64,000 bases of DNA from Nitrospirota bacterium. GTDB lineage: Bacteria; Nitrospirota; 9FT-COMBO-42-15; HDB-SIOI813. The notes under the pieces were generated by a model. The model saw only the letters and a list, made by a program, of their open reading frames with translations. It ran no database searches and was not told the DNA's origin. This document shows positions 34,790 through 45,177 of this stretch, piece by piece. The stretch is from contig JADLDG010000034.1 of assembly GCA_020846775.1 (NCBI GenBank), forward strand, positions 62,001 to 126,000. The letters are read 5' to 3'. The position numbers and the translations under genes were made by a program. Positions within the stretch are counted from its first letter, which is position 1. The number at the start of each line of letters is the position of its first letter.

Positions 34790-36139
34790 GTGAGGACAAT
34801 ATATAACTTCTTCAGTTCTATCAAATTAGCTATTGCGATCTTTCTCATATTAGCCTCAGGTTCGATTGCAGGGACGCTGATTGAACAGAATTTAAGTCCG
34901 GAACAATACATAACACGCTACGGTGAAAATTGGTACAAATGGATACATGCCGTCAGCCTGTCAGATGTTTACCATAGCTGGTGGTTCTCTGGCATGCTTG
35001 TTCTTCTTGCAGTAAACCTTGCCGTCTGCTTCTCAAAGAGAGTCCCTTCAATCTGGCGTGCATATTCGTCAGTAGACTGTGATTTTACCCATAATCTTGT
35101 CCTGAACTTTAAGCATAACACTATTATTCCATTTCAGGGTGATATGGATGATGCAGGAAGGAAAGTAGAAGCGTCCCTGAAAGGGAGAAAATATAAACTC
35201 TGGCTTGGGAAAAAATATGGAAACATCTCCATGTTTGCTTCAAAGGGGGCCATTGGCAGATTGGGACCTGTCATCAGTCATATCAGCATATTCCTTATTC
35301 TTATCGGGGCTGCTTTAAGCAGCGCAATAGGTTTCAGAGGCTACATTCCTGTTTTTGAAGGGGTACCTGTACGTGTCCCTGAGGGCAACTTCACTATTAT
35401 CCTTAACAAATTCTGGATTGACTACTATGAAAATGGTATGATTAAAGATTACTTCAGCAGCCTGTCAATTTTAGATAAAGGGGAAATTGTACTGACCAAG
35501 ACAATACAGGTAAATGATCCACTGCAGTACAAGGGCTTCCGGTTCTATCAAAGCAGTTACGGAACTGCACGGGACCGCGCAGACAAGCTTTTCATGCGCA
35601 TCACTGACAGGGAAAATGGAGGCACTGTAGCCGATGCCGCTCTGGATTTCAGAAAGGAAAAAGAAATCAAGGGGACAGACCTGAGATTATATGCAAGTAA
35701 TTTCACTGGCAATTTTGAATCTGATTCCGGCAACAAAGAAATATTTGCCAAATCTGCCAAATCCGAAGATCATGAAAATCCTGCGGTGCAGATTGATATT
35801 TATGAAGGTGGAAAATTAATATCAAGCCCCTGGATATTCTATAAATTCCCTGATATGTTTCCTGTTAAGGGTTCAAAATACAACTTCATCCTTTCAGGTT
35901 ATACATCACCTCATTATTCCGGCCTTCAGATAGCCAAAGATCCTGGCGTTAACATAGTCTGGGCTGGAAGCGGCCTGCTTATGCTTGGGCTTTATTTATC
36001 TTTTTTCATATTTCACTGGAGGATCTGGATCATGATAGAACCATATGAAGAGAACGCCCTGATCTATATAGGTGGAATAGCGAACAAAGATACGCTTGGC
36101 TTTGAAAAAGAAATGGAAAGCATATTGAGACATTTATGA
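34790..36139 (+). CDS. resB: ResB/Ccs1-family cytochrome c biogenesis protein
   Basis: The 449-residue protein has the ResB pattern: helices near 13-30 and 62-80, a third (SHISIFLILIGAALSSAIG) near 170, a large periplasmic domain, and a last helix (LLMLGLYLSFFIFHWRIWI). GSIAGTLIEQNLSPEQY and QSSYG are family marks. ResB works with CcsA/ResC in System II to move haem across the membrane and attach it to apocytochromes. No ccsA-type partner follows; a System I set does. The start is GTG with a weak ribosome site. Confidence 0.9.
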   Translation: MRTIYNFFSSIKLAIAIFLILASGSIAGTLIEQNLSPEQYITRYGENWYKWIHAVSLSDVYHSWWFSGMLVLLAVNLAVCFSKRVPSIWRAYSSVDCDFTHNLVLNFKHNTIIPFQGDMDDAGRKVEASLKGRKYKLWLGKKYGNISMFASKGAIGRLGPVISHISIFLILIGAALSSAIGFRGYIPVFEGVPVRVPEGNFTIILNKFWIDYYENGMIKDYFSSLSILDKGEIVLTKTIQVNDPLQYKGFRFYQSSYGTARDRADKLFMRITDRENGGTVADAALDFRKEKEIKGTDLRLYASNFTGNFESDSGNKEIFAKSAKSEDHENPAVQIDIYEGGKLISSPWIFYKFPDMFPVKGSKYNFILSGYTSPHYSGLQIAKDPGVNIVWAGSGLLMLGLYLSFFIFHWRIWIMIEPYEENALIYIGGIANKDTLGFEKEMESILRHL

Positions 36140-36188: not shown

Positions 36189-36929
36189 ATGGATTATTCC
36201 AATATCTCTATCTTTGTCGCATTTTCAGCAGGCTTTCTTTCTTTTGTTTCTCCCTGTGTCCTACCCCTCGTACCTTCTTTTGTTACCTACATAACAGGTC
36301 TGACATTCGAAGATATTACATCTGCCAAAGATAAATCAAAGGTAAGGTATATAACAATCACAAATTCACTTGCCTTCATTGGAGGGTTTTCTTCTGTTTT
36401 TGTACTTCTCGGTGCATCAGCAACATTTTTAGGAGAGACATTACTTGCTTATCAGAACATTATTCAGAAAATCGGAGGAGTACTTATCGTACTTTTGGGG
36501 CTGTACATAATGGGGGTCATCAAATTAAACTTCCTGTCCTCTCAGAAAAAATTCCATATAGAAAACAAACCAGCCGGATTTATAGGTTCTTTCCTTGTTG
36601 GGATGGCATTCGCTGCAGGATGGACACCATGTGTCGGTCCTATATTAGGCTCCATTCTCCTTTATGCAAGTACTACAGGTTCAATGGCAAAGGGGATGGG
36701 ACTCCTGGCAGTATACTCTCTCGGACTTGGCGTGCCTTTTTTTATTTCAGCCCTGGCCATCAACACATTCATAGCAACCTTTAAGGTTGTGACCCGATAC
36801 ATGAAATGGATAAACATCATTAGCGGGGCCTTCCTGATATTGATAGGTATAATGATATTTACTGACTCTTTTTCATTCATTTCTACATGGTTTCAAAAAT
36901 ATGGAATAGGGTGGAGTATTGAATTATAA
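36189..36929 (+). CDS. ccdA: CcdA thiol-disulfide membrane protein
   Basis: The 246-residue protein has six helices with the reactive cysteines in SFVSPCVLPLVPS and GWTPCVGPILGS. This is the CcdA/DsbD transmembrane core. It carries reducing power from cytoplasmic thioredoxin to periplasmic CcmG/ResA, which keeps apocytochrome CxxCH cysteines reduced. It lies after resB and in the same direction as the ccm genes; the ccmG-like gene of the cluster is its natural partner. Confidence 0.95.
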   Translation: MDYSNISIFVAFSAGFLSFVSPCVLPLVPSFVTYITGLTFEDITSAKDKSKVRYITITNSLAFIGGFSSVFVLLGASATFLGETLLAYQNIIQKIGGVLIVLLGLYIMGVIKLNFLSSQKKFHIENKPAGFIGSFLVGMAFAAGWTPCVGPILGSILLYASTTGSMAKGMGLLAVYSLGLGVPFFISALAINTFIATFKVVTRYMKWINIISGAFLILIGIMIFTDSFSFISTWFQKYGIGWSIEL

Positions 36930-37019: not shown

Positions 37020-38189
37020 ATGCCAAACTACGACGTCATAGTAGCAGGTTCCGGACCTGCCGGTGCCACGACTGCACACAGGCTTGCAAAGGCAGGACTA
37101 AGTGTCCTGATCCTTGAAAAGGACGAGCTTCCGAGATACAAACCATGCGGCGGAGGCATTTCTTTAAAGATAAACCGCATCCTTGACATAGATATTAAAG
37201 ATTTTGTCGAGGCAACGGTCAGCGGCGCCTACTTCAGTTATGGTCAGAAAGAGAGCACCCTGCTTATGTCTGAACAACCGGTGGCGTATATGGTAATGCG
37301 CGACAAGCTTGACGCTCACATAACCTATGAAGCTGTAAAGGCGGGGGCATCCCTTCTTACAGGTAAAAAGGTAGAAGGTATTGCTGCTGCAAAAGATGGA
37401 TATGAGGTCTTTACAAAGAATGAGGTCTTTACATGCCGGTATGTAGTCGGGGCTGATGGCGTCAACGGGGCTGCAAGAAGGTTTATGTATCCAAATACCA
37501 TTCGTACTATAGCCGCATCAATAGAGGCAGAGATAGAGGTCGAACAGTCTGTCATTGACAAGCATTCCAATTATGTACATATTGATTTCGGGGTCATACC
37601 TTATGGTTATGCATGGGTCTTTCCAAAAAAAAACATGTTATCTGTCGGTATAGCCGGATTTAAAGGTGTAGTTAAAAGACCCAAAGATTTTTTTGATAAA
37701 TTTATTAAAGGACATGACACACTGTCCGGTATAACTGGCTTTAAATATAAAGGATATCCACTGCCGCTATTCAGAAAGCAGCAGGTCCTTACAAAGGGTG
37801 GGGTCATACTGACAGGAGATGCAGGTAATCTGGTAGACCCATTTTTTGGCGAGGGGATCTATTATGCCATCAGGAGTGCACAGCTTGCATCTTCCGTTAT
37901 TTATGACAGTATCCGCAATGGGAGCAGCGATCTCGGCAGATACGATAAGCTTCTGAGCAACGAGTTCTATCCTGAGTTCAGGGCTGCCCAGAAAGTCTCT
38001 CTATTCGTTTATTCGTGCCCAAGAATTTGGTATGACATCCTGACAGAGAGGCCTGAGCTCGCAGAAAAATATTTCAATGTCCTGCGCGGCAACAACAGTT
38101 ATGAAAACTTTTTAAAGGAACTAAAGTCCATCGGCGGCTCACTTGTGAAGACAGCGATCAAGAAGAGCATCGTACGTTTATTTAATTAG
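37020..38189 (+). CDS. Geranylgeranyl reductase-family flavoprotein
   Basis: The 389-residue protein has the FAD-binding DVIVAGSGPAGATTAHRLAKAGLSVLILEKD, the family motif PRYKPCGGGIS, and the second FAD segment LTGDAGNLVDPFFGEGIYYAIRSAQLA. These place it in the geranylgeranyl-reductase-related oxidoreductases, which saturate polyprenyl chains of quinones or lipids. The gene lies inside the cytochrome biogenesis cluster, two bases before ccmA. A role in quinone or haem side-chain chemistry is an inference from this position. Confidence 0.85.
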   Translation: MPNYDVIVAGSGPAGATTAHRLAKAGLSVLILEKDELPRYKPCGGGISLKINRILDIDIKDFVEATVSGAYFSYGQKESTLLMSEQPVAYMVMRDKLDAHITYEAVKAGASLLTGKKVEGIAAAKDGYEVFTKNEVFTCRYVVGADGVNGAARRFMYPNTIRTIAASIEAEIEVEQSVIDKHSNYVHIDFGVIPYGYAWVFPKKNMLSVGIAGFKGVVKRPKDFFDKFIKGHDTLSGITGFKYKGYPLPLFRKQQVLTKGGVILTGDAGNLVDPFFGEGIYYAIRSAQLASSVIYDSIRNGSSDLGRYDKLLSNEFYPEFRAAQKVSLFVYSCPRIWYDILTERPELAEKYFNVLRGNNSYENFLKELKSIGGSLVKTAIKKSIVRLFN

Positions 38190-38191
38190 TA

Positions 38192-38872
38192 ATGATGAAA
38201 GCCATACAGTGTATTTCCATTTCCAAGTCATACCGGCATTACGAGGTACTTAAAGAGATAACCCTTGAAATCAACTCAGGTGAATGCTATGCAATGTTCG
38301 GCCCAAATGGGGCAGGAAAAACAACCCTTCTCAGGATACTGGCCACTGTCCACCGTCCTTCAGCCGGTCAATTCTTAATGGCAGGTTACGATGGAGTCCG
38401 GGAGAAAATTAAGGTACGGGAGGCCGTCTTCCTTATCGCTCACGGATCATATCTGTATGACGACCTGAATGCTATCGAAAATATCCGCTTTGCCATAGGG
38501 CTCCGCGGGAAAAACCGGCCGGACCAGGAGATAAAGCTTGCCCTTGACCGTGTGGGGATTGGCGCCTTCTCAGAACTCAAGACCCGTTACTTTTCTGCAG
38601 GGATGAAGAAGCGTTTGTCTATTGCAAAATCAATGCTCACAAACCCAAAGATACTTTTAATGGACGAACCTTACGCCTCTCTGGATGAGAAGGGGCAGCA
38701 AATGGTCAATCATTATCTTCGGGAGGTAACAGAATCAGGTGGTACTGTTTTTATGACTACCCACGACCGGGCCAGAACTGCTGAGGTAGCTCACCGGGTC
38801 GGTGTCCTCACCCAGGGAAGTCTCAGGGAAATACCGGCACTACAGTTAAAAGAGTCCCATGATATTTTTTAG
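38192..38872 (+). CDS. ccmA: CcmA, ATPase of the CcmABC complex
   Basis: The 226-residue ATPase has Walker A GPNGAGKTT, an LSIAKSML core in the signature region (FSAGMKKRLSIAKSM) and Walker B ILLMDEPYASLD. FSAGMKKR instead of LSGGQ is common in CcmA. It releases holo-CcmE from CcmC in System I. It overlaps ccmB by 14 bases. Confidence 0.93.
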   Translation: MMKAIQCISISKSYRHYEVLKEITLEINSGECYAMFGPNGAGKTTLLRILATVHRPSAGQFLMAGYDGVREKIKVREAVFLIAHGSYLYDDLNAIENIRFAIGLRGKNRPDQEIKLALDRVGIGAFSELKTRYFSAGMKKRLSIAKSMLTNPKILLMDEPYASLDEKGQQMVNHYLREVTESGGTVFMTTHDRARTAEVAHRVGVLTQGSLREIPALQLKESHDIF

Positions 38873-39536
38873 AGTTATCCGATGGATCGTATGGAAAGAC
38901 CTTTTAAGTGAGATCAGGAGCCGTGAGAATATCTCATCCATGTTCTTTTTTGCACTCATTATCATCCTGATCTTCAGCTTAAGCCTTTCAATGGATACAG
39001 AGATGGTAAAAGAGATGATACCAGGGATCCTCTGGATTGCCTTCAGTTTTACCGGGATCATCGGCCTTGGAAAGTCTTTCCTCGTAGAGACGCAGAACGA
39101 CTGTATGGAGAACCTGCTGATGGCCCCAATCCCGAAAGGGGCTGTCTACCTTGGGAAACTTCTGGGAAATTTTCTCTTCATGCTGGTGGTCGAGATCATA
39201 ATCTTTCCCCTGTTCGTTATTTTTTTTAATCTCGACATTTTTGGACAGATCCCCATGATTATGTTAATATGTTTCCTCGGCACACTGGGTCTGGCGGCCA
39301 TGGGAACCCTGCTATCGGCCATGACGGTTCAAATCAAGGCGCGTGAAGTGATGTTCCCTCTGATGCTCCTCCCCCTCGTTGTTCCGGTGATTATCGGTGC
39401 AGTTGAGGCTACAAAGGGGGCAATAAATGCCGACCCGCTGAAACTGTATCAGCAATGGATCCAGTTACTGGCAGTATTCGACCTTGTTTTTCTGATCGTG
39501 TCGTACTGGCTGTTTGAATTTATCCTGGAGGATTAG
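38859..39536 (+). CDS. ccmB: CcmB, membrane subunit of the CcmABC complex
   Basis: The 225-residue protein has six predicted helices and the family opening VWKDLLSEIRSRENIS, with LAAMGTLLSAMTVQIKAREVMFPLMLLPLVVPVII in the second half. It is the permease-like partner of CcmA. It lies between ccmA (overlap) and ccmC (gap five bases). Confidence 0.93.
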   Translation: MIFFRVIRWIVWKDLLSEIRSRENISSMFFFALIIILIFSLSLSMDTEMVKEMIPGILWIAFSFTGIIGLGKSFLVETQNDCMENLLMAPIPKGAVYLGKLLGNFLFMLVVEIIIFPLFVIFFNLDIFGQIPMIMLICFLGTLGLAAMGTLLSAMTVQIKAREVMFPLMLLPLVVPVIIGAVEATKGAINADPLKLYQQWIQLLAVFDLVFLIVSYWLFEFILED

Positions 39537-39541
39537 GTATT

Positions 39542-40249
39542 ATGCACAAATTGATAAAATGGATGCGGCGTCTCGAGGGCTGGTTTGGACTTGCCGCAGG
39601 CATTTTCTTAATAGTTGGATTGTATATGGCTCTGGTTACATCCCCACCGGATTACTATCAGGGGGAAGTCGTAAGGATCATGTATATTCATGTCCCCTTT
39701 GCCCAGACTTCACTCCTTGCTTATCTTGTCCTCTTCATAGGAAGCCTCTGGTATCTTTGGAAGAAGGACCCTGTAGTTGACAATCTCAACCATGCAGCTG
39801 CCGGTGTGGGGGCATTTTTCACAATCGGGGAACTGTTAACCGGTTCCATATGGGGGAAACCGGCATGGAATACCTGGTGGACATGGGACGCCCGGCTGAC
39901 CTCGGCCCTTGTCCTTCTCCTGATCCTGATGGCCTATCTGATGCTTCGTATGTTTATGGATGATCATGTGAAAGAGGCCAGATATGCCGCTATCGTGGCC
40001 ATTATAGGTTTTGTGGATCTCCCTATTGTCTATTTCTCAGTTGAGTGGTGGAGGACCATTCACCAGCCGCTCTCAGTTTCTCAAAGGGGATTGGCCATCT
40101 CACAGGAAATCTTAATACCATTGATTGTCATGACTATCGGATTCTATCTGCTCTTTACGTATATGGTCATGGTCCGGACCAGAATGCTCTATCTGGGACA
40201 CCTCCTTGAAGCCAAGAAAGGAAGGCTTCTAAGCCAGGCGCACCTATGA
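39542..40249 (+). CDS. ccmC: CcmC, haem-handling protein of the CcmABC complex
   Basis: The 235-residue protein has six helices and the WWD-type motif WGKPAWNTWWTWDARLTS. Flanking histidines occur in MYIHVP and the WRTIHQP loop. CcmC places haem on CcmE at the periplasmic face. It overlaps the following OB-fold gene as ATGA. Confidence 0.95.
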   Translation: MHKLIKWMRRLEGWFGLAAGIFLIVGLYMALVTSPPDYYQGEVVRIMYIHVPFAQTSLLAYLVLFIGSLWYLWKKDPVVDNLNHAAAGVGAFFTIGELLTGSIWGKPAWNTWWTWDARLTSALVLLLILMAYLMLRMFMDDHVKEARYAAIVAIIGFVDLPIVYFSVEWWRTIHQPLSVSQRGLAISQEILIPLIVMTIGFYLLFTYMVMVRTRMLYLGHLLEAKKGRLLSQAHL

Positions 40250-40764
40250 GCAGGGGAATGTCTTCGTTCTACATTCGATGGGGGGTTTTACTCCTCGTCA
40301 CATCCATGATCGCATTTCTGGGGTTCCAAAGATATCAAAGGGATGTGGCCAGTCTGACCCCTGATCAACTATTGGAAAACCCGACACCTGATAAAACAAG
40401 GGTAATGGGGATTATCCAGGGAGGTACCCTGACAAGGGAACATGACAGTAACAGGGCTTATTTTCTTCTTCAGGGGGAAAATAAGACATTGCCGGTCAGG
40501 TATGAGGGACATGACACTGATACGCTGAGGGATCTCAAAGTCATAGTAGTTACCGGACATATAAATTCCGTTACAGCAGAGTTCGACGGGGAATCTGTTT
40601 CACTCATTCCAAATTACGGCTTTGTGACAGTCGCCTATTTGTTAGGTATCCTGCCGACCCTCTTCTTCCTCTTCCTGATGGAGCGAAAACTTCGTCTACT
40701 GTATACAGAGGTAAAAGAAGCCAAACTTTATGAACCGGAGGCAATAGACTTTGACAAAGAGTAA
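40246..40764 (+). CDS. Two-helix OB-fold protein with CcmD-like tail
   Basis: This 172-residue protein occupies the place of ccmD between ccmC and ccmE. It begins with a helix (WGVLLLVTSMIAFLGF). A beta-rich region of about 75 residues follows (VMGIIQGGTLTRE, YFLLQGENKTLPVRYEG, VIVVTGHINS) that resembles the CcmE OB-fold but has no HxxxY haem motif. It ends with NYGFVTVAYLLGILPTL, a second helix and a charged tail (MERKLRLLYTEVKEAKL) that looks like CcmD. A fusion or CcmE-derived equivalent of CcmD is the best reading; the family is not recognised with certainty. It overlaps ccmC by four bases and ccmE by 14. Confidence 0.6.
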   Translation: MSRGMSSFYIRWGVLLLVTSMIAFLGFQRYQRDVASLTPDQLLENPTPDKTRVMGIIQGGTLTREHDSNRAYFLLQGENKTLPVRYEGHDTDTLRDLKVIVVTGHINSVTAEFDGESVSLIPNYGFVTVAYLLGILPTLFFLFLMERKLRLLYTEVKEAKLYEPEAIDFDKE

Positions 40765-41203
40765 AAAAATCGGCATAGGTATTAGCATTCTGATTATTGC
40801 CGGGGCTATAGGATATCTGGCTCTGGGGAACTTCGGGGAAAATCTGATCTATTTTTACACCCCGTCGGAAGTCCGCTCCCTCTCCCCTGATTATTACGGA
40901 AAAAAAGTGCGTGTAGGCGGGATGGTCGTAAATGGAAGTCTTAAGGTTGTCCCCAATACGCTCCGTATGAACTTTGAGTTGACTGACGGGGCTGAAACGA
41001 TACCGGTTACATTTGAAGGGGTACCTCCTGATCTGTTCAAAGAAGGGACCGGTGCCGTGGTTGAGGGTTACTGGGATTCCGGCAATGTCTTTAAATCCAA
41101 CATGATCATGGCCAAGCATTCAGAAGACTACATGCCTATAGAGATGAAACGGGCCGGCGTGGAAATGCCAAAGAAGGACATGATAAAATCGTTGCAACCA
41201 TAG
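40751..41203 (+). CDS. ccmE: CcmE, periplasmic haem chaperone
   Basis: The 150-residue protein has an N-terminal anchor helix (GIGISILIIAGAIGYLAL), an OB-fold (VRVGGMVVNGSLKV, ELTDGAETIPVTFEGVPPDLF) and the haem-binding AKHSEDYMP, with H about 123 and Y about 127. The histidine binds haem covalently before transfer to CcmF. It is translationally overlapped with the preceding gene. Confidence 0.95.
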   Translation: MTKSKKIGIGISILIIAGAIGYLALGNFGENLIYFYTPSEVRSLSPDYYGKKVRVGGMVVNGSLKVVPNTLRMNFELTDGAETIPVTFEGVPPDLFKEGTGAVVEGYWDSGNVFKSNMIMAKHSEDYMPIEMKRAGVEMPKKDMIKSLQP

Positions 41204-41233: not shown

Positions 41234-43186
41234 ATGATAATAGAAATTGGTTATTTCGCAGTTATTGCTGCACTCGTGGTCTCCATTGCCGGAATTCTCG
41301 CTCCATTGATCGGCCTTAAAACAGGAAATCCGGCATGGATCCGGGCCGGACGCCAGGCCGTAACCGCTAATTTTATCCTGATTTCATTAGGATGCGGTTC
41401 ACTTATATACTCCTTTCTGTTACGTGACTTCTCGGTAAAATATGTTGTCATGAATTCTAACAGCCGGTTGCCGGTCTTTTATACTGTAGCTGCACTGTGG
41501 GGTGGACATGAGGGATCTCTCCTTTTCTGGGCATGGATACTGGCTGCCTTCGCAACCCTGGCTGCCTGGATACACTGGAAGTCTCACCCGGAAACCATGC
41601 CCTACCTGCTGGCGATTGAGTCATCTCTGACAGTCGGATTTCTGGCGCTAATCATCTTCTTGTCGAGCCCTTTTGAACGCGTCTTTCCAGCCCTTGCCGA
41701 GGGGATGGACTTAAACCCCCTGCTTCAGGACCCAGGCATGGTTTTTCATCCCCCGTTTCTTTACCTCGGCTACGTCGGTTTCTCCATACCATTTTCATTT
41801 GCCCTGGCGGCCCTGCTTTCCGGCAGGTTGGGAGAAGAATGGATACGTGCAACCCATCGCTGGACCCTATTTTCATGGATCATGTTGACATTCGGGATTA
41901 TTATGGGAGGCTACTGGGCCTATTATGAATTGGGATGGGGAGGCTACTGGGCCTGGGACCCTGTGGAGAATGCCTCATTTATGCCATGGCTGGTCGGGAC
42001 GGCATTTCTGCACTCCGTCATGGTGCAGGAGAAACGAAAGATGTTCAAGGTGTGGAACCTCTTTCTGATTATTGTCACCTTCTCTTTATCACTCTTAGGG
42101 ACTTTTCTTGTCCGAAGCGGCATTCTCTCATCTGTCCATGCATTTGCAAACGATCCGGGACGGGGGGTTTATATCCTGATCTTCATGTCTACAGTGCTTA
42201 TACTTTCGTTCGGCATTCTTATAATACGTTCTAATAAGCTTAAGGTCAAAATCGAGATGGACTCCGTCATCTCGCGGGAGTCAGCATATCTGTTCAATAA
42301 CCTGTTTTTTCTGATAGCAACTGCCACTGTCTTCCTCGGGACGCTTTACCCCCTCCTCGTTGACACACTGTACGGGACAAAGGTGACAGTCGGCGCTCCT
42401 TACTACAACAAGGTTTTTCTGCCGATTGTTCTGATTATCCTTATACTTATGGGAATAGCCCCGATGATAGCCTGGCGTAAGGCATCAATGGAAAACCTCC
42501 GGAAGAACTTCCTGGTTCCAGTGATAGCCGCCCTGGCTGGTACGGTGATCTCCGCCATAATTGGCATCCGGCAGATTTATCCCCTGGCAGCAGCTTTCAT
42601 CGTCTTTTTTGTCGCGGCAACCATCATATCTGACCTGTATAAAAACAGCTCCTACTGGGCAAGCCACTCCGGGACCAGTCTGCTGACCGGTATTTGGAAG
42701 GCATGGTATCATAATCAGAGGCGTTACGGTGGACTGGTAACCCATATAGGTGTCCTGGTGATGATACTCGGGATAATAGGATCATCTGCATACAAATTGG
42801 AAAAAACGATTATTTTGAAACCCGGAGATGAGTTTTCACTCGGACACTACTCCTATAAGTTTCAGGGACTCCAGGATGTTCAGGGGATCAACTGGGAGGG
42901 TGCGGAGGCCCTTTTCAACGTCTATGAGGGAAATAACTTCATAGCAGAGATGCGGCCTCAAAAAAGGCGTTATTCAGGCGGGTCTCAAATGCCGACCACC
43001 GAGGCTGCTATTTATCCTCGTCACATGGGCGATCTCTACCTGTCCATGACTGATATAACGCAGGATGGATGGATCACAGTAATGGCCTTCCAGAACCCCC
43101 TGATCCACTGGATATGGTATGGCGGTGGAATAATGGGACTTGGAGTCGTTCTGATTCTCTTCAAGAGAAAAAGGAGGGAATCGTAA
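41234..43186 (+). CDS. ccmF: CcmF, cytochrome c haem lyase subunit
   Basis: The 650-residue polytopic membrane protein carries the conserved GWGGYWAWDPVENASFMPWL block (the WWD domain) and about 14 helices, with a periplasmic region before the last helix. It takes haem from CcmE and ligates it to the CxxCH of apocytochromes together with CcmH/I. The start ATG has a GGAAG ribosome site. Its TAA overlaps the ATG of ccmG (TAATG). Confidence 0.96.
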   Translation: MIIEIGYFAVIAALVVSIAGILAPLIGLKTGNPAWIRAGRQAVTANFILISLGCGSLIYSFLLRDFSVKYVVMNSNSRLPVFYTVAALWGGHEGSLLFWAWILAAFATLAAWIHWKSHPETMPYLLAIESSLTVGFLALIIFLSSPFERVFPALAEGMDLNPLLQDPGMVFHPPFLYLGYVGFSIPFSFALAALLSGRLGEEWIRATHRWTLFSWIMLTFGIIMGGYWAYYELGWGGYWAWDPVENASFMPWLVGTAFLHSVMVQEKRKMFKVWNLFLIIVTFSLSLLGTFLVRSGILSSVHAFANDPGRGVYILIFMSTVLILSFGILIIRSNKLKVKIEMDSVISRESAYLFNNLFFLIATATVFLGTLYPLLVDTLYGTKVTVGAPYYNKVFLPIVLIILILMGIAPMIAWRKASMENLRKNFLVPVIAALAGTVISAIIGIRQIYPLAAAFIVFFVAATIISDLYKNSSYWASHSGTSLLTGIWKAWYHNQRRYGGLVTHIGVLVMILGIIGSSAYKLEKTIILKPGDEFSLGHYSYKFQGLQDVQGINWEGAEALFNVYEGNNFIAEMRPQKRRYSGGSQMPTTEAAIYPRHMGDLYLSMTDITQDGWITVMAFQNPLIHWIWYGGGIMGLGVVLILFKRKRRES

Positions 43187-43731
43187 TGAAAGGGTGGCAT
43201 GTCGCAACTATAGTTGCGCTCATCGGAATAATCGGGCTCTTTTACGCAGGACTTGGTCGTGATCCAAGAAACATCCCCACTGTCCTTGTTGGAACAGCGG
43301 CCCCATCCTTCTCAGGTCCGAATGTACAGAGCGGAGAAATCCTTTCATTTGACTCATACAAAGGAAAGATTATTGTTCTTAATTTCTGGGCCTCCTGGTG
43401 TCAGGAATGCCGGCTGGAGCATCAGAACCTGCTGGCAATTAACGGAGAATTCAGGAATTATCCTGACTTTGTAATGCTCGGGATAGATTACCAGGATCAG
43501 CCCGGGGACGCTAATGGTTTTCTCAATTCCTTCGGTAGTTCATATCCTCACATAAGGGACATCAAGGGTACCATTGCGATTGATTATGGGGTTTATGGTG
43601 TCCCTGAAACGTTTATTATAGACAGCAAGGGGATCATACGTTTCAAATATGTAGGACCAATCATTGGACCGGTCTATTCTCAGGTGACGGAGAAAATCAT
43701 CCGGCCACTGTTAGAGGGTAAGGAGCTTTAA
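43186..43731 (+). CDS. ccmG: CcmG/DsbE-like thiol reductase
   Basis: The true start is ATG 43186, which overlaps the ccmF stop and follows AAAGGAGG. The 181-residue product has an N-terminal anchor and a thioredoxin fold with the redox motif WCQECR (C72, C75) and the cis-Pro region GVPETFII. It reduces apocytochrome disulfides in the periplasm using electrons from CcdA. A longer frame starting at 43069 overlaps ccmF and is not needed. Confidence 0.95.
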   Translation: MKGWHVATIVALIGIIGLFYAGLGRDPRNIPTVLVGTAAPSFSGPNVQSGEILSFDSYKGKIIVLNFWASWCQECRLEHQNLLAINGEFRNYPDFVMLGIDYQDQPGDANGFLNSFGSSYPHIRDIKGTIAIDYGVYGVPETFIIDSKGIIRFKYVGPIIGPVYSQVTEKIIRPLLEGKEL

Positions 43732-43736
43732 AGATT

Positions 43737-44210
43737 ATGATAAAAGCTATATGGGTCATATCCTTTCTACTATTTTTTACGCATGCAGGCATTCTTCCGG
43801 CAGAGATACGGGATGAAACCTCTCTCGATGCAAGGACCCGGGATGTGTCAAAGACACTGAGGTGTACGGTTTGCCAGAATGAATCTATCTGGGACTCCAA
43901 GGCCGACCTGGCAAAGCAGATGCGTGAGGTAGTCCGTGAGCGCCTTGCACAGGGACAAAGCGAGGAAGAGATTCAGGCTTACTTCCGGAGCCGGTATGGA
44001 GACTATATCCTGCTTGAGCCCAGAAAATCGGGGATGAACTGGCTTCTTTGGGCTGGCCCTTTCGTCCTCTTTGCTGTTGGAGGATTAATCCTCTACCTGG
44101 TTGTGCGCCGCTGGGTCGCTCAGACACCAACTACACGCATGGAAGATCTCCCTCCCCTTGATGATGAACATAAGAAGCGAATCGAGGAGGAGTTAAAATC
44201 TTTCGAATAG
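43737..44210 (+). CDS. ccmH: CcmH, apocytochrome c thiol oxidoreductase
   Basis: The 157-residue protein has a signal peptide, the CcmH motif LRCTVCQNESIWDS with its two cysteines, and the conserved QAYFRSRYGDYILLEPR. A helix (LLWAGPFVLFAVGGLILYLVV) then anchors it. It presents reduced apocytochrome to CcmF. The ccmI-like gene follows after 25 bases. Confidence 0.95.
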   Translation: MIKAIWVISFLLFFTHAGILPAEIRDETSLDARTRDVSKTLRCTVCQNESIWDSKADLAKQMREVVRERLAQGQSEEEIQAYFRSRYGDYILLEPRKSGMNWLLWAGPFVLFAVGGLILYLVVRRWVAQTPTTRMEDLPPLDDEHKKRIEEELKSFE

Positions 44211-44235: not shown

Positions 44236-45177
44236 ATGTTCGTCGTCATAGCTGCGGTAATAGTAATAGTCGCAGTGTTGTTTATTGCCTGGCCGCTCTT
44301 CCGTAAGGGTTCAAGTCCGCTCTCTCAAGGGATGGATACTGCCGGCAGAGAGGAATCCATTGACCTTGAAACGGAAAAACAGAATATCCTCGAATCTCTC
44401 ACAGACCTCGAGTCTGACCGGCAGGGAGGCAAGCTCACACAGGCTGACTATGAACGTCTTAAAGACATTGATGAACACCGTCTGGCTGGAATCCTTGATA
44501 TGATTGACAGCGCTGCTGCTGCAGCAAAAATATCTGCAAGGCATCAGACAGGTACAGGCTCCACAGAACAGGCACCCCGCTTCCGGACTATGAACATAGC
44601 GGGCTTCCTCCTCTTGACCGCCCTTGTGATAGGCGGCTCCTCCGGAATTTACTATTACCAGAATGTCAAGACTCAGAATCAAAATCAGGAAGCCATGATG
44701 GAAAATCAGGGGGATCCCTCTATGGATGGCGCGGCCAATCCTCTTGAGATGGTAGCACAACTGGAGCGCAAACTGAGACAAAATCCGGATGATCTGCAGG
44801 GGCAGATAATGGCCGGCCGTTCCTACATGACAATTGATCGTCCTGAAGATGCACGGAAGGCATGGAACAAGGTAATCGAACTCGATCCTGCCAATGTTGA
44901 GGCTCACTATAGTCTGGGCTATCTCCTGATCCAGACCGCTGACGCCGGAACCCCGCAAAACTTTGAAAAGGCCATAGGTCATCTCGATGCAGCGCTATTG
45001 CTCTCCCCTGGACTGCCGGCTGCACTTTACTACAAAGGGCTTGCCCTCACCCACCTGAAAAAGTATGATGAGGCGGAAAGCAACTGGAACAGCGCCCTTC
45101 ATGGCCTTCCACCAGGCAGCGAAGATGCGGAATTCGTAAAGGATGCCCTTAGAAAACTAAAGAACGGAAAGCGGTAG
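44236..45177 (+). CDS. ccmI: CcmI/CycH-like TPR protein
   Basis: The 313-residue protein opens with a helix (VVIAAVIVIVAVLFIAWPLF) and a short coiled-coil-like cytoplasmic loop. A second helix near 120-138 follows, then periplasmic TPR repeats (GRSYMTIDRPEDARKAWNKVIELDPANVEAHYSLGYLL). This is the CcmI design, in which the TPR part captures the C-terminal helix of apocytochromes. Its stop abuts the ATG of the next gene. Confidence 0.88.
   Translation: MFVVIAAVIVIVAVLFIAWPLFRKGSSPLSQGMDTAGREESIDLETEKQNILESLTDLESDRQGGKLTQADYERLKDIDEHRLAGILDMIDSAAAAAKISARHQTGTGSTEQAPRFRTMNIAGFLLLTALVIGGSSGIYYYQNVKTQNQNQEAMMENQGDPSMDGAANPLEMVAQLERKLRQNPDDLQGQIMAGRSYMTIDRPEDARKAWNKVIELDPANVEAHYSLGYLLIQTADAGTPQNFEKAIGHLDAALLLSPGLPAALYYKGLALTHLKKYDEAESNWNSALHGLPPGSEDAEFVKDALRKLKNGKR

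Follow-up and report, generated by a model that had tools for sequence, protein, structure and literature searches.

In the 64,000-nucleotide stretch of Nitrospirota DNA analysed here (the window), the place of ccmD is taken by a gene for a 172-aa protein which, judged from its sequence, is very probably a natural fusion of a haem-dead CcmE paralogue with CcmD, replacing CcmD itself. This identity is argued from the fold, the CcmD character of the tail at family level, the position, the conservation, the mutual exclusion with free ccmD and the retention of docking residues. The ORF list and its translation place the gene, with an ATG start, at 40246-40764 of the forward strand, between ccmC, with which it shares 4 bp (ATGA), and ccmE, with which it shares 14 bp (the TTG start of ccmE is at 40751). 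Because of these overlaps a separate ccmD would not fit between the two genes, and the gene lies exactly in the ccmD slot, as an earlier note on this DNA had proposed. The System I ccm operon in the window has ccmABC, ccmE, ccmF, ccmG, and ccmH, and its features are the following:

38192..38872, + strand: ccmA (ABC ATPase)
38859..39536, + strand: ccmB
39542..40249, + strand: ccmC (TIGR01191 above cut-off)
40246..40764, + strand: probable fused gene, CcmE-like OB domain and CcmD-like tail, 172 aa, in the ccmD slot (ORF, Pfam, AlphaFold2, Foldseek)
40252..40347, + strand: N-terminal helix, residues 3-34, CcmE-type membrane anchor with conserved FYxRW at its start (AlphaFold2, family alignment)
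40393..40608, + strand: CcmE-type OB domain, residues ~50-121, without HxxxY (Pfam, AlphaFold2, Foldseek)
40519..40533, + strand: D92-T-L-R95-D96, equivalents of E. coli CcmE D101/R104/E105, the CcmC-docking patch (alignment; roles from PMC6204919)
40612..40623, + strand: NYGF motif, residues 123-126, at the point where CcmE would start its haem-binding tail (alignment)
40615..40728, + strand: CcmD-like TM helix and basic cytoplasmic tail, residues 124-161 (AlphaFold2, family-level CcmD matches)
40751..41203, + strand: genuine ccmE, TTG start, HSEDY haem site
41234..43186, + strand: ccmF
43069..43731, + strand: ccmG/DsbE thioredoxin, true start probably internal to the ORF as listed
43737..44210, + strand: ccmH
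44236..45177, + strand: TPR protein, CcmI-like (TPR_CcmH_CycH at its Pfam cut-off)

The gene after the fusion encodes a true CcmE (Pfam 4.2e-31) with the haem motif KHSEDY. Directly upstream of the System I genes are found a ResB (System II) gene (34790-36139) and a CcdA-type gene (36189-36929), the latter separated from ccmA by a gene of the geranylgeranyl-reductase family (37020-38189). The cluster in the window comprises in this way parts of both cytochrome c systems (ResB of System II and the ccm genes of System I), and CcdA has also been seen near ccm in a number of loci from relatives.

The relationship of the first half with CcmE is seen in both sequence and predicted structure. The Pfam CcmE family covers residues 37-118 of the protein (3.2e-10, 40.7 bits against a cut-off of 24.6) and matches all 38 members of the homologue alignment A2, and the PDB-sequence match is also to CcmE; the cut-off of the NCBIfam CcmE equivalog is missed (30.2 bits vs 171). 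An AlphaFold2 model built on the 38-sequence alignment (pLDDT 83.5, pTM 0.63) contains a helix at residues 3-34, a beta barrel with strands at 51-120 and a single long helix at 124-161. In the PDB, Foldseek matches it best to the CcmE chain of the E. coli CcmABCDE complex (8ce8_E, E 5.9e-7), and later matches include OB domains of lysyl-tRNA synthetases and CcmE NMR structures. The OB fold that the earlier note had expected, a CcmE-like region without HxxxY, is therefore predicted by Pfam, model and Foldseek alike. The protein shares with the System I haem chaperone CcmE (PF03100) the N-terminal anchor, the OB barrel and the positions R61, G64, G97, D/E101, R104, and E/D105, but it lacks the HxxxY tail and K129 and, instead of the single anchor and free periplasmic C-terminus of CcmE, it ends in a second TM helix (124-161 in the model). 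This helix is presumably oriented N-out, with the basic tail ERKLRLLYTEVK in the cytoplasm, as suggested by the charge and by the CcmE-like half. In 62 fused OB domains, the position of D101 is D/E in 62/62, that of R104 is R in 62/62, that of E105 is E/D in 61/62 and R61 is present in 62/62, while H130, K129, and Y134 are gone in all 62; the R73 position is Gly or Thr in about half of the family. In an OB tree, of few columns and in which the root of the duplication is not placed, the fused domains that were sampled cluster in one clade (100/100) that no sampled CcmE enters, and the CcmE proteins of fusion genomes form one group (99/95). This supports a single origin for these fused domains.

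The tail resembles CcmD (PF04995, TIGR03141; CcmD_alt PF20077/TIGR04391) in its ccmC-ccmE slot, in a periplasmic Tyr before the helix (GGYAF in CcmD vs NYGF), in its one TM helix and in its basic cytoplasmic tail. On the other hand, CcmD is a protein of ~50-80 aa (under about 100 aa, vs 172 aa in the fusion) with a short amphipathic N-terminal helix, where the fusion carries an anchored OB domain. The tail of the window protein has no direct CcmD match in Pfam or NCBIfam, and CcmD homology is therefore argued through the family. When 55 tails were compared with NCBIfam, TIGR03141 CcmD was the most frequent match (14/55, best 3.4e-5), followed among the CcmD models by CcmD_alt (two tails, 4.1e-4) and CcmD_like_Wolb (one tail); Pfam CcmD matches 17/55, and in full fusions all the CcmD matches are under the curated cut-offs. 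Unrelated TM families also match the tails (ExcA seven, NdhL six), single-helix matches being weak, so that more weight is given to the genome scan, the f7 gene, hhalign and mutual exclusion. In fact, in a six-frame scan of 396 genomes the match of TIGR03141 lies within the tail of the fusion for G184 (2.5e-4) and G270 (8.1e-4). In family f7, which is without the fusion, a free gene for 53 aa (VKSNYEFIAAAYGATAVIL...) lies between ccmC and ccmE; its product scores highest outside the family (19-21 bits) when the tail profile is run against 9473 ORFs, and it matches both CcmD_alt (2.5e-5, at cut-off) and CcmD (1.8e-4). By its sequence, this unfused gene is an intermediate that links the fused tails with CcmD. 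Finally, hhalign of tail and CcmD puts NYGF on GGYAF in the expected register (P 0.003), aligning the near-invariant Tyr124 with CcmD Y17. A home-made CcmD profile, which ranked some tails first among non-CcmD ORFs and scattered others, gave a weak ranking that is not counted as proof. The weakness of single-helix similarity and the lack of a direct match in the window would also fit a CcmE paralogue that gained an unrelated second helix, CcmD having been lost as in archaea, which function without it (PMC9084895). Nevertheless, tails are matched by three CcmD models, in two genomes the scan with the CcmD model lands on the tail, the f7 gene connects tail and CcmD, and the fusion occupies precisely the slot of ccmD; this alternative is considered improbable. 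The second helix with charged tail noticed earlier is thus CcmD-like, though its homology shows in relatives rather than in the window sequence by itself.

The fusion and the stand-alone CcmD are mutually exclusive in the phylum. In the window's genome no separate small ccmD was detected with PF04995 (best E 0.61), TIGR04391 (best 1.78) or TIGR03141 (none at 1e-3). A family profile built from 30 homologues and searched against 396 Nitrospirota genomes gave full-length fusion matches of 118-242 bits in 49 genomes from 11 families, whereas true CcmE scored 43-53 bits and covered only positions of about 9-115, so that the two groups are cleanly separated; the architecture sought at the ccmC-ccmE junction is in this way found well beyond the window. 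In the TIGR03141 six-frame scan of the same 396 genomes, stand-alone CcmD is above cut-off in 66, all of families f2 and f9, and no genome has both (49 vs 66). With this zero overlap and the CcmD matches of the family tails, the replacement of ccmD by a CcmD-CcmE fusion, as first suggested from the window, is well supported. The fusion lies directly after ccmC in all of the first-collected cases (35/35, 34 loci plus the window) and mostly overlaps or abuts ccmE, with inserts in a few. A scan of 85k species, which hangs on one motif, yielded 38 loci, including Candidatus Manganitrophus and several Nitrospirales, and all belong to Nitrospirota or a lineage within it except two labelled Nitrospinota; one of the latter, L077, is perhaps the same as G380, which is placed in the window's own phylum.

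Conservation extends to the reading frame and to the surface by which CcmE is reported to meet CcmC. Between the window fusion and that of the congener G001, changes at the three codon positions number 41/23/87, with dN 0.21 and dS ~2 (dN/dS about 0.1), which indicates purifying selection. A decaying ccmE duplicate without function would explain the loss of the haem-binding residues, but hardly this ratio within the genus or the invariant residues across 11 families, and its probability is negligible. E. coli CcmE docks on CcmC via R73, D101, and E105, and R104 covaries with CcmC Q49 (PMC6204919). In fusion genomes, the real CcmE retains H130/Y134 wherever data exist (56/56) and D101/E105 in 57/57, and CcmC retains D47/Q50/R55 (57/57). 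By contrast, R73 of the real CcmE is found in 0/57 fusion genomes vs 23/23 elsewhere, and the Q49 position of CcmC is Tyr in 55/57 vs Gln in 18/24 elsewhere. Since the fused OB domains and the accompanying CcmE each form one clade, these co-changes equal about one event each; the loss of R73 and the change of Q49 are clade-wide, and their correlation with the fusion is suggestive only and not independent evidence. Position M118 of CcmC, for which coevolution with CcmD Y17 has been reported, carries Thr or Ala where the fusion is present and varies in other genomes as well; it was set aside as uninformative.

The best explanation of the whole, which we hold to be somewhat more probable than not, is that a fusion replacing CcmD acts as a tethered placeholder at CcmC; the placeholder and release mechanism as such is put forward tentatively. 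In E. coli, CcmD binds only CcmC and its Y17 adjoins the CcmC WWD loop (PMC9616876), and CcmD is required for the release of holo-CcmE (PMC9084895, PMC3601427); its role in this release and its contact with CcmE have been treated in several works (PMC9616876, PMC12077264, PMC3601427). The CcmD half of the fusion would bind CcmC as CcmD does. The barrel is predicted to end about three residues before the Y17 equivalent, where CcmE would carry H130, and this short join together with the closeness of Y17 to the WWD loop suggests that the dead barrel is located at, or close to, the face of CcmC on which CcmE docks. There it might serve as a placeholder that the real CcmE must displace to get its haem, and the return of the barrel might help to eject holo-CcmE, in the release step needing CcmD in E. 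coli. More broadly, the sequences could reflect a clade-wide variant of System I in which CcmD bears a haem-dead CcmE decoy that competes for CcmC and so controls when the chaperone is loaded and released, CcmC and CcmE having changed to match; this proposal is of the same tentative kind. Against the placeholder reading counts the E. coli cryo-EM work, where CcmE is seen only on CcmB and not on CcmC (PMC10457321), the docking site of CcmE being therefore itself debated. The Gly or Thr that about half of the family has at the R73 position of the OB domain also speaks against it.

Other functions can be conceived for the same fusion. The OB barrel could stay permanently on CcmC and recruit the real CcmE by OB-OB contact, CcmE no longer docking directly; this adapter is close to the tethering of the complex to haem-loaded CcmE imagined in the earlier note. 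The absence of R73, a reported CcmC contact, from CcmE of fusion genomes and the Tyr at CcmC Q49 would agree with it, as would a CcmE-CcmD:flag complex of ~25 kDa reported in E. coli (PMC12077264). Nevertheless, with CcmE D101 and E105 and CcmC D47/Q50/R55 all kept, the direct docking patch is not lost, and the OB-OB contact is purely putative; the adapter is thus rather unlikely, though less so than the remaining alternative, and it is the chief competitor of the placeholder. As the OB domain keeps CcmE's own CcmC-docking residues, an occupant or competitor of the CcmE site on CcmC seems no worse a fit than a bridge to holo-CcmE, and a placeholder alternating with CcmE is preferred over the adapter because of the need for CcmD in holo-CcmE release and the predicted position of the barrel. 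The remaining alternative is a haem relay, in which the barrel or Tyr124 would transiently bind haem and hand it to CcmE. It draws on the alignment of Tyr124 with CcmD Y17, a residue which in E. coli crosslinks haem when changed to Cys (PMC12077264), but the covalent ligand H130 is gone together with K129 and Y134 in 62/62 and NMR work detected no pocket for haem on the core of CcmE (PMC6204919), which makes a relay quite unlikely.

The gene is a new architecture built from two known families, outside CcmE by its haem motif and anchor and outside CcmD by its size. A CcmE/CcmD fusion was not found described in the open-access papers searched, whereas CcmH-CcmI fusions are, which is not proof of novelty. 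No CcmD variants appear in a 2011 review (PMC3601427), ccmD was called universal in bacteria using this pathway in 2022 (PMC9084895) and the role of CcmD in holo-CcmE release was still termed enigmatic in 2018 (PMC6204919). E. coli CcmH, a natural CcmH-CcmI fusion, likewise unites two parts of System I that are otherwise encoded separately, although other components are involved, and in the present case the CcmE half is without its haem-binding residue and an intact second CcmE is retained. That many Nitrospirota carry the fusion, among them relatives of manganese oxidisers, is fusion evidence for CcmD working beside CcmE on CcmC, and it offers a handle on haem release onto cytochromes c, namely whether a tethered CcmE mimic speeds the release of the loaded chaperone.

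Some minor observations concern the searches and the loci. A single-sequence scan of genome contigs with the window protein gave no match, whereas the alignment-based scan succeeded, and a plasmid tblastn returned ordinary CcmE only and no fusion. In the first search of relatives, matches outside the genus had scores in the CcmE range, and two loci read fully proved to be ordinary CcmE. CcmE was not found in G002-G009 of family f1, the window's family (eight sampled genomes beyond G001, one from a congener and seven from other genera, several incomplete), and hence in the window's genus the ccm operon may have a patchy distribution or have been acquired. A more distant type of CcmE-family gene occurs in L048, L049, L050, L051, and L053 (families f20, f26, f13, f21, and f41), where CcmC was undetected using the window's ccmC as query. 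A weak CcmD match in G080 was set aside, being far from the ccm locus of that genome. In the G080 locus (L016:2479-3606, - strand), a transposase-like (integrase-type) ORF, named from its sequence appearance, lies between the fusion and ccmE, and the gene pair is therefore not always tightly linked. Another such case is G178 (L027:1640-2700), where ~1 kb separates the fusion from ccmE and holds a small GIY-YIG-like ORF (1918-2247, also named from appearance) and repeat-like text, with no ccm gene.
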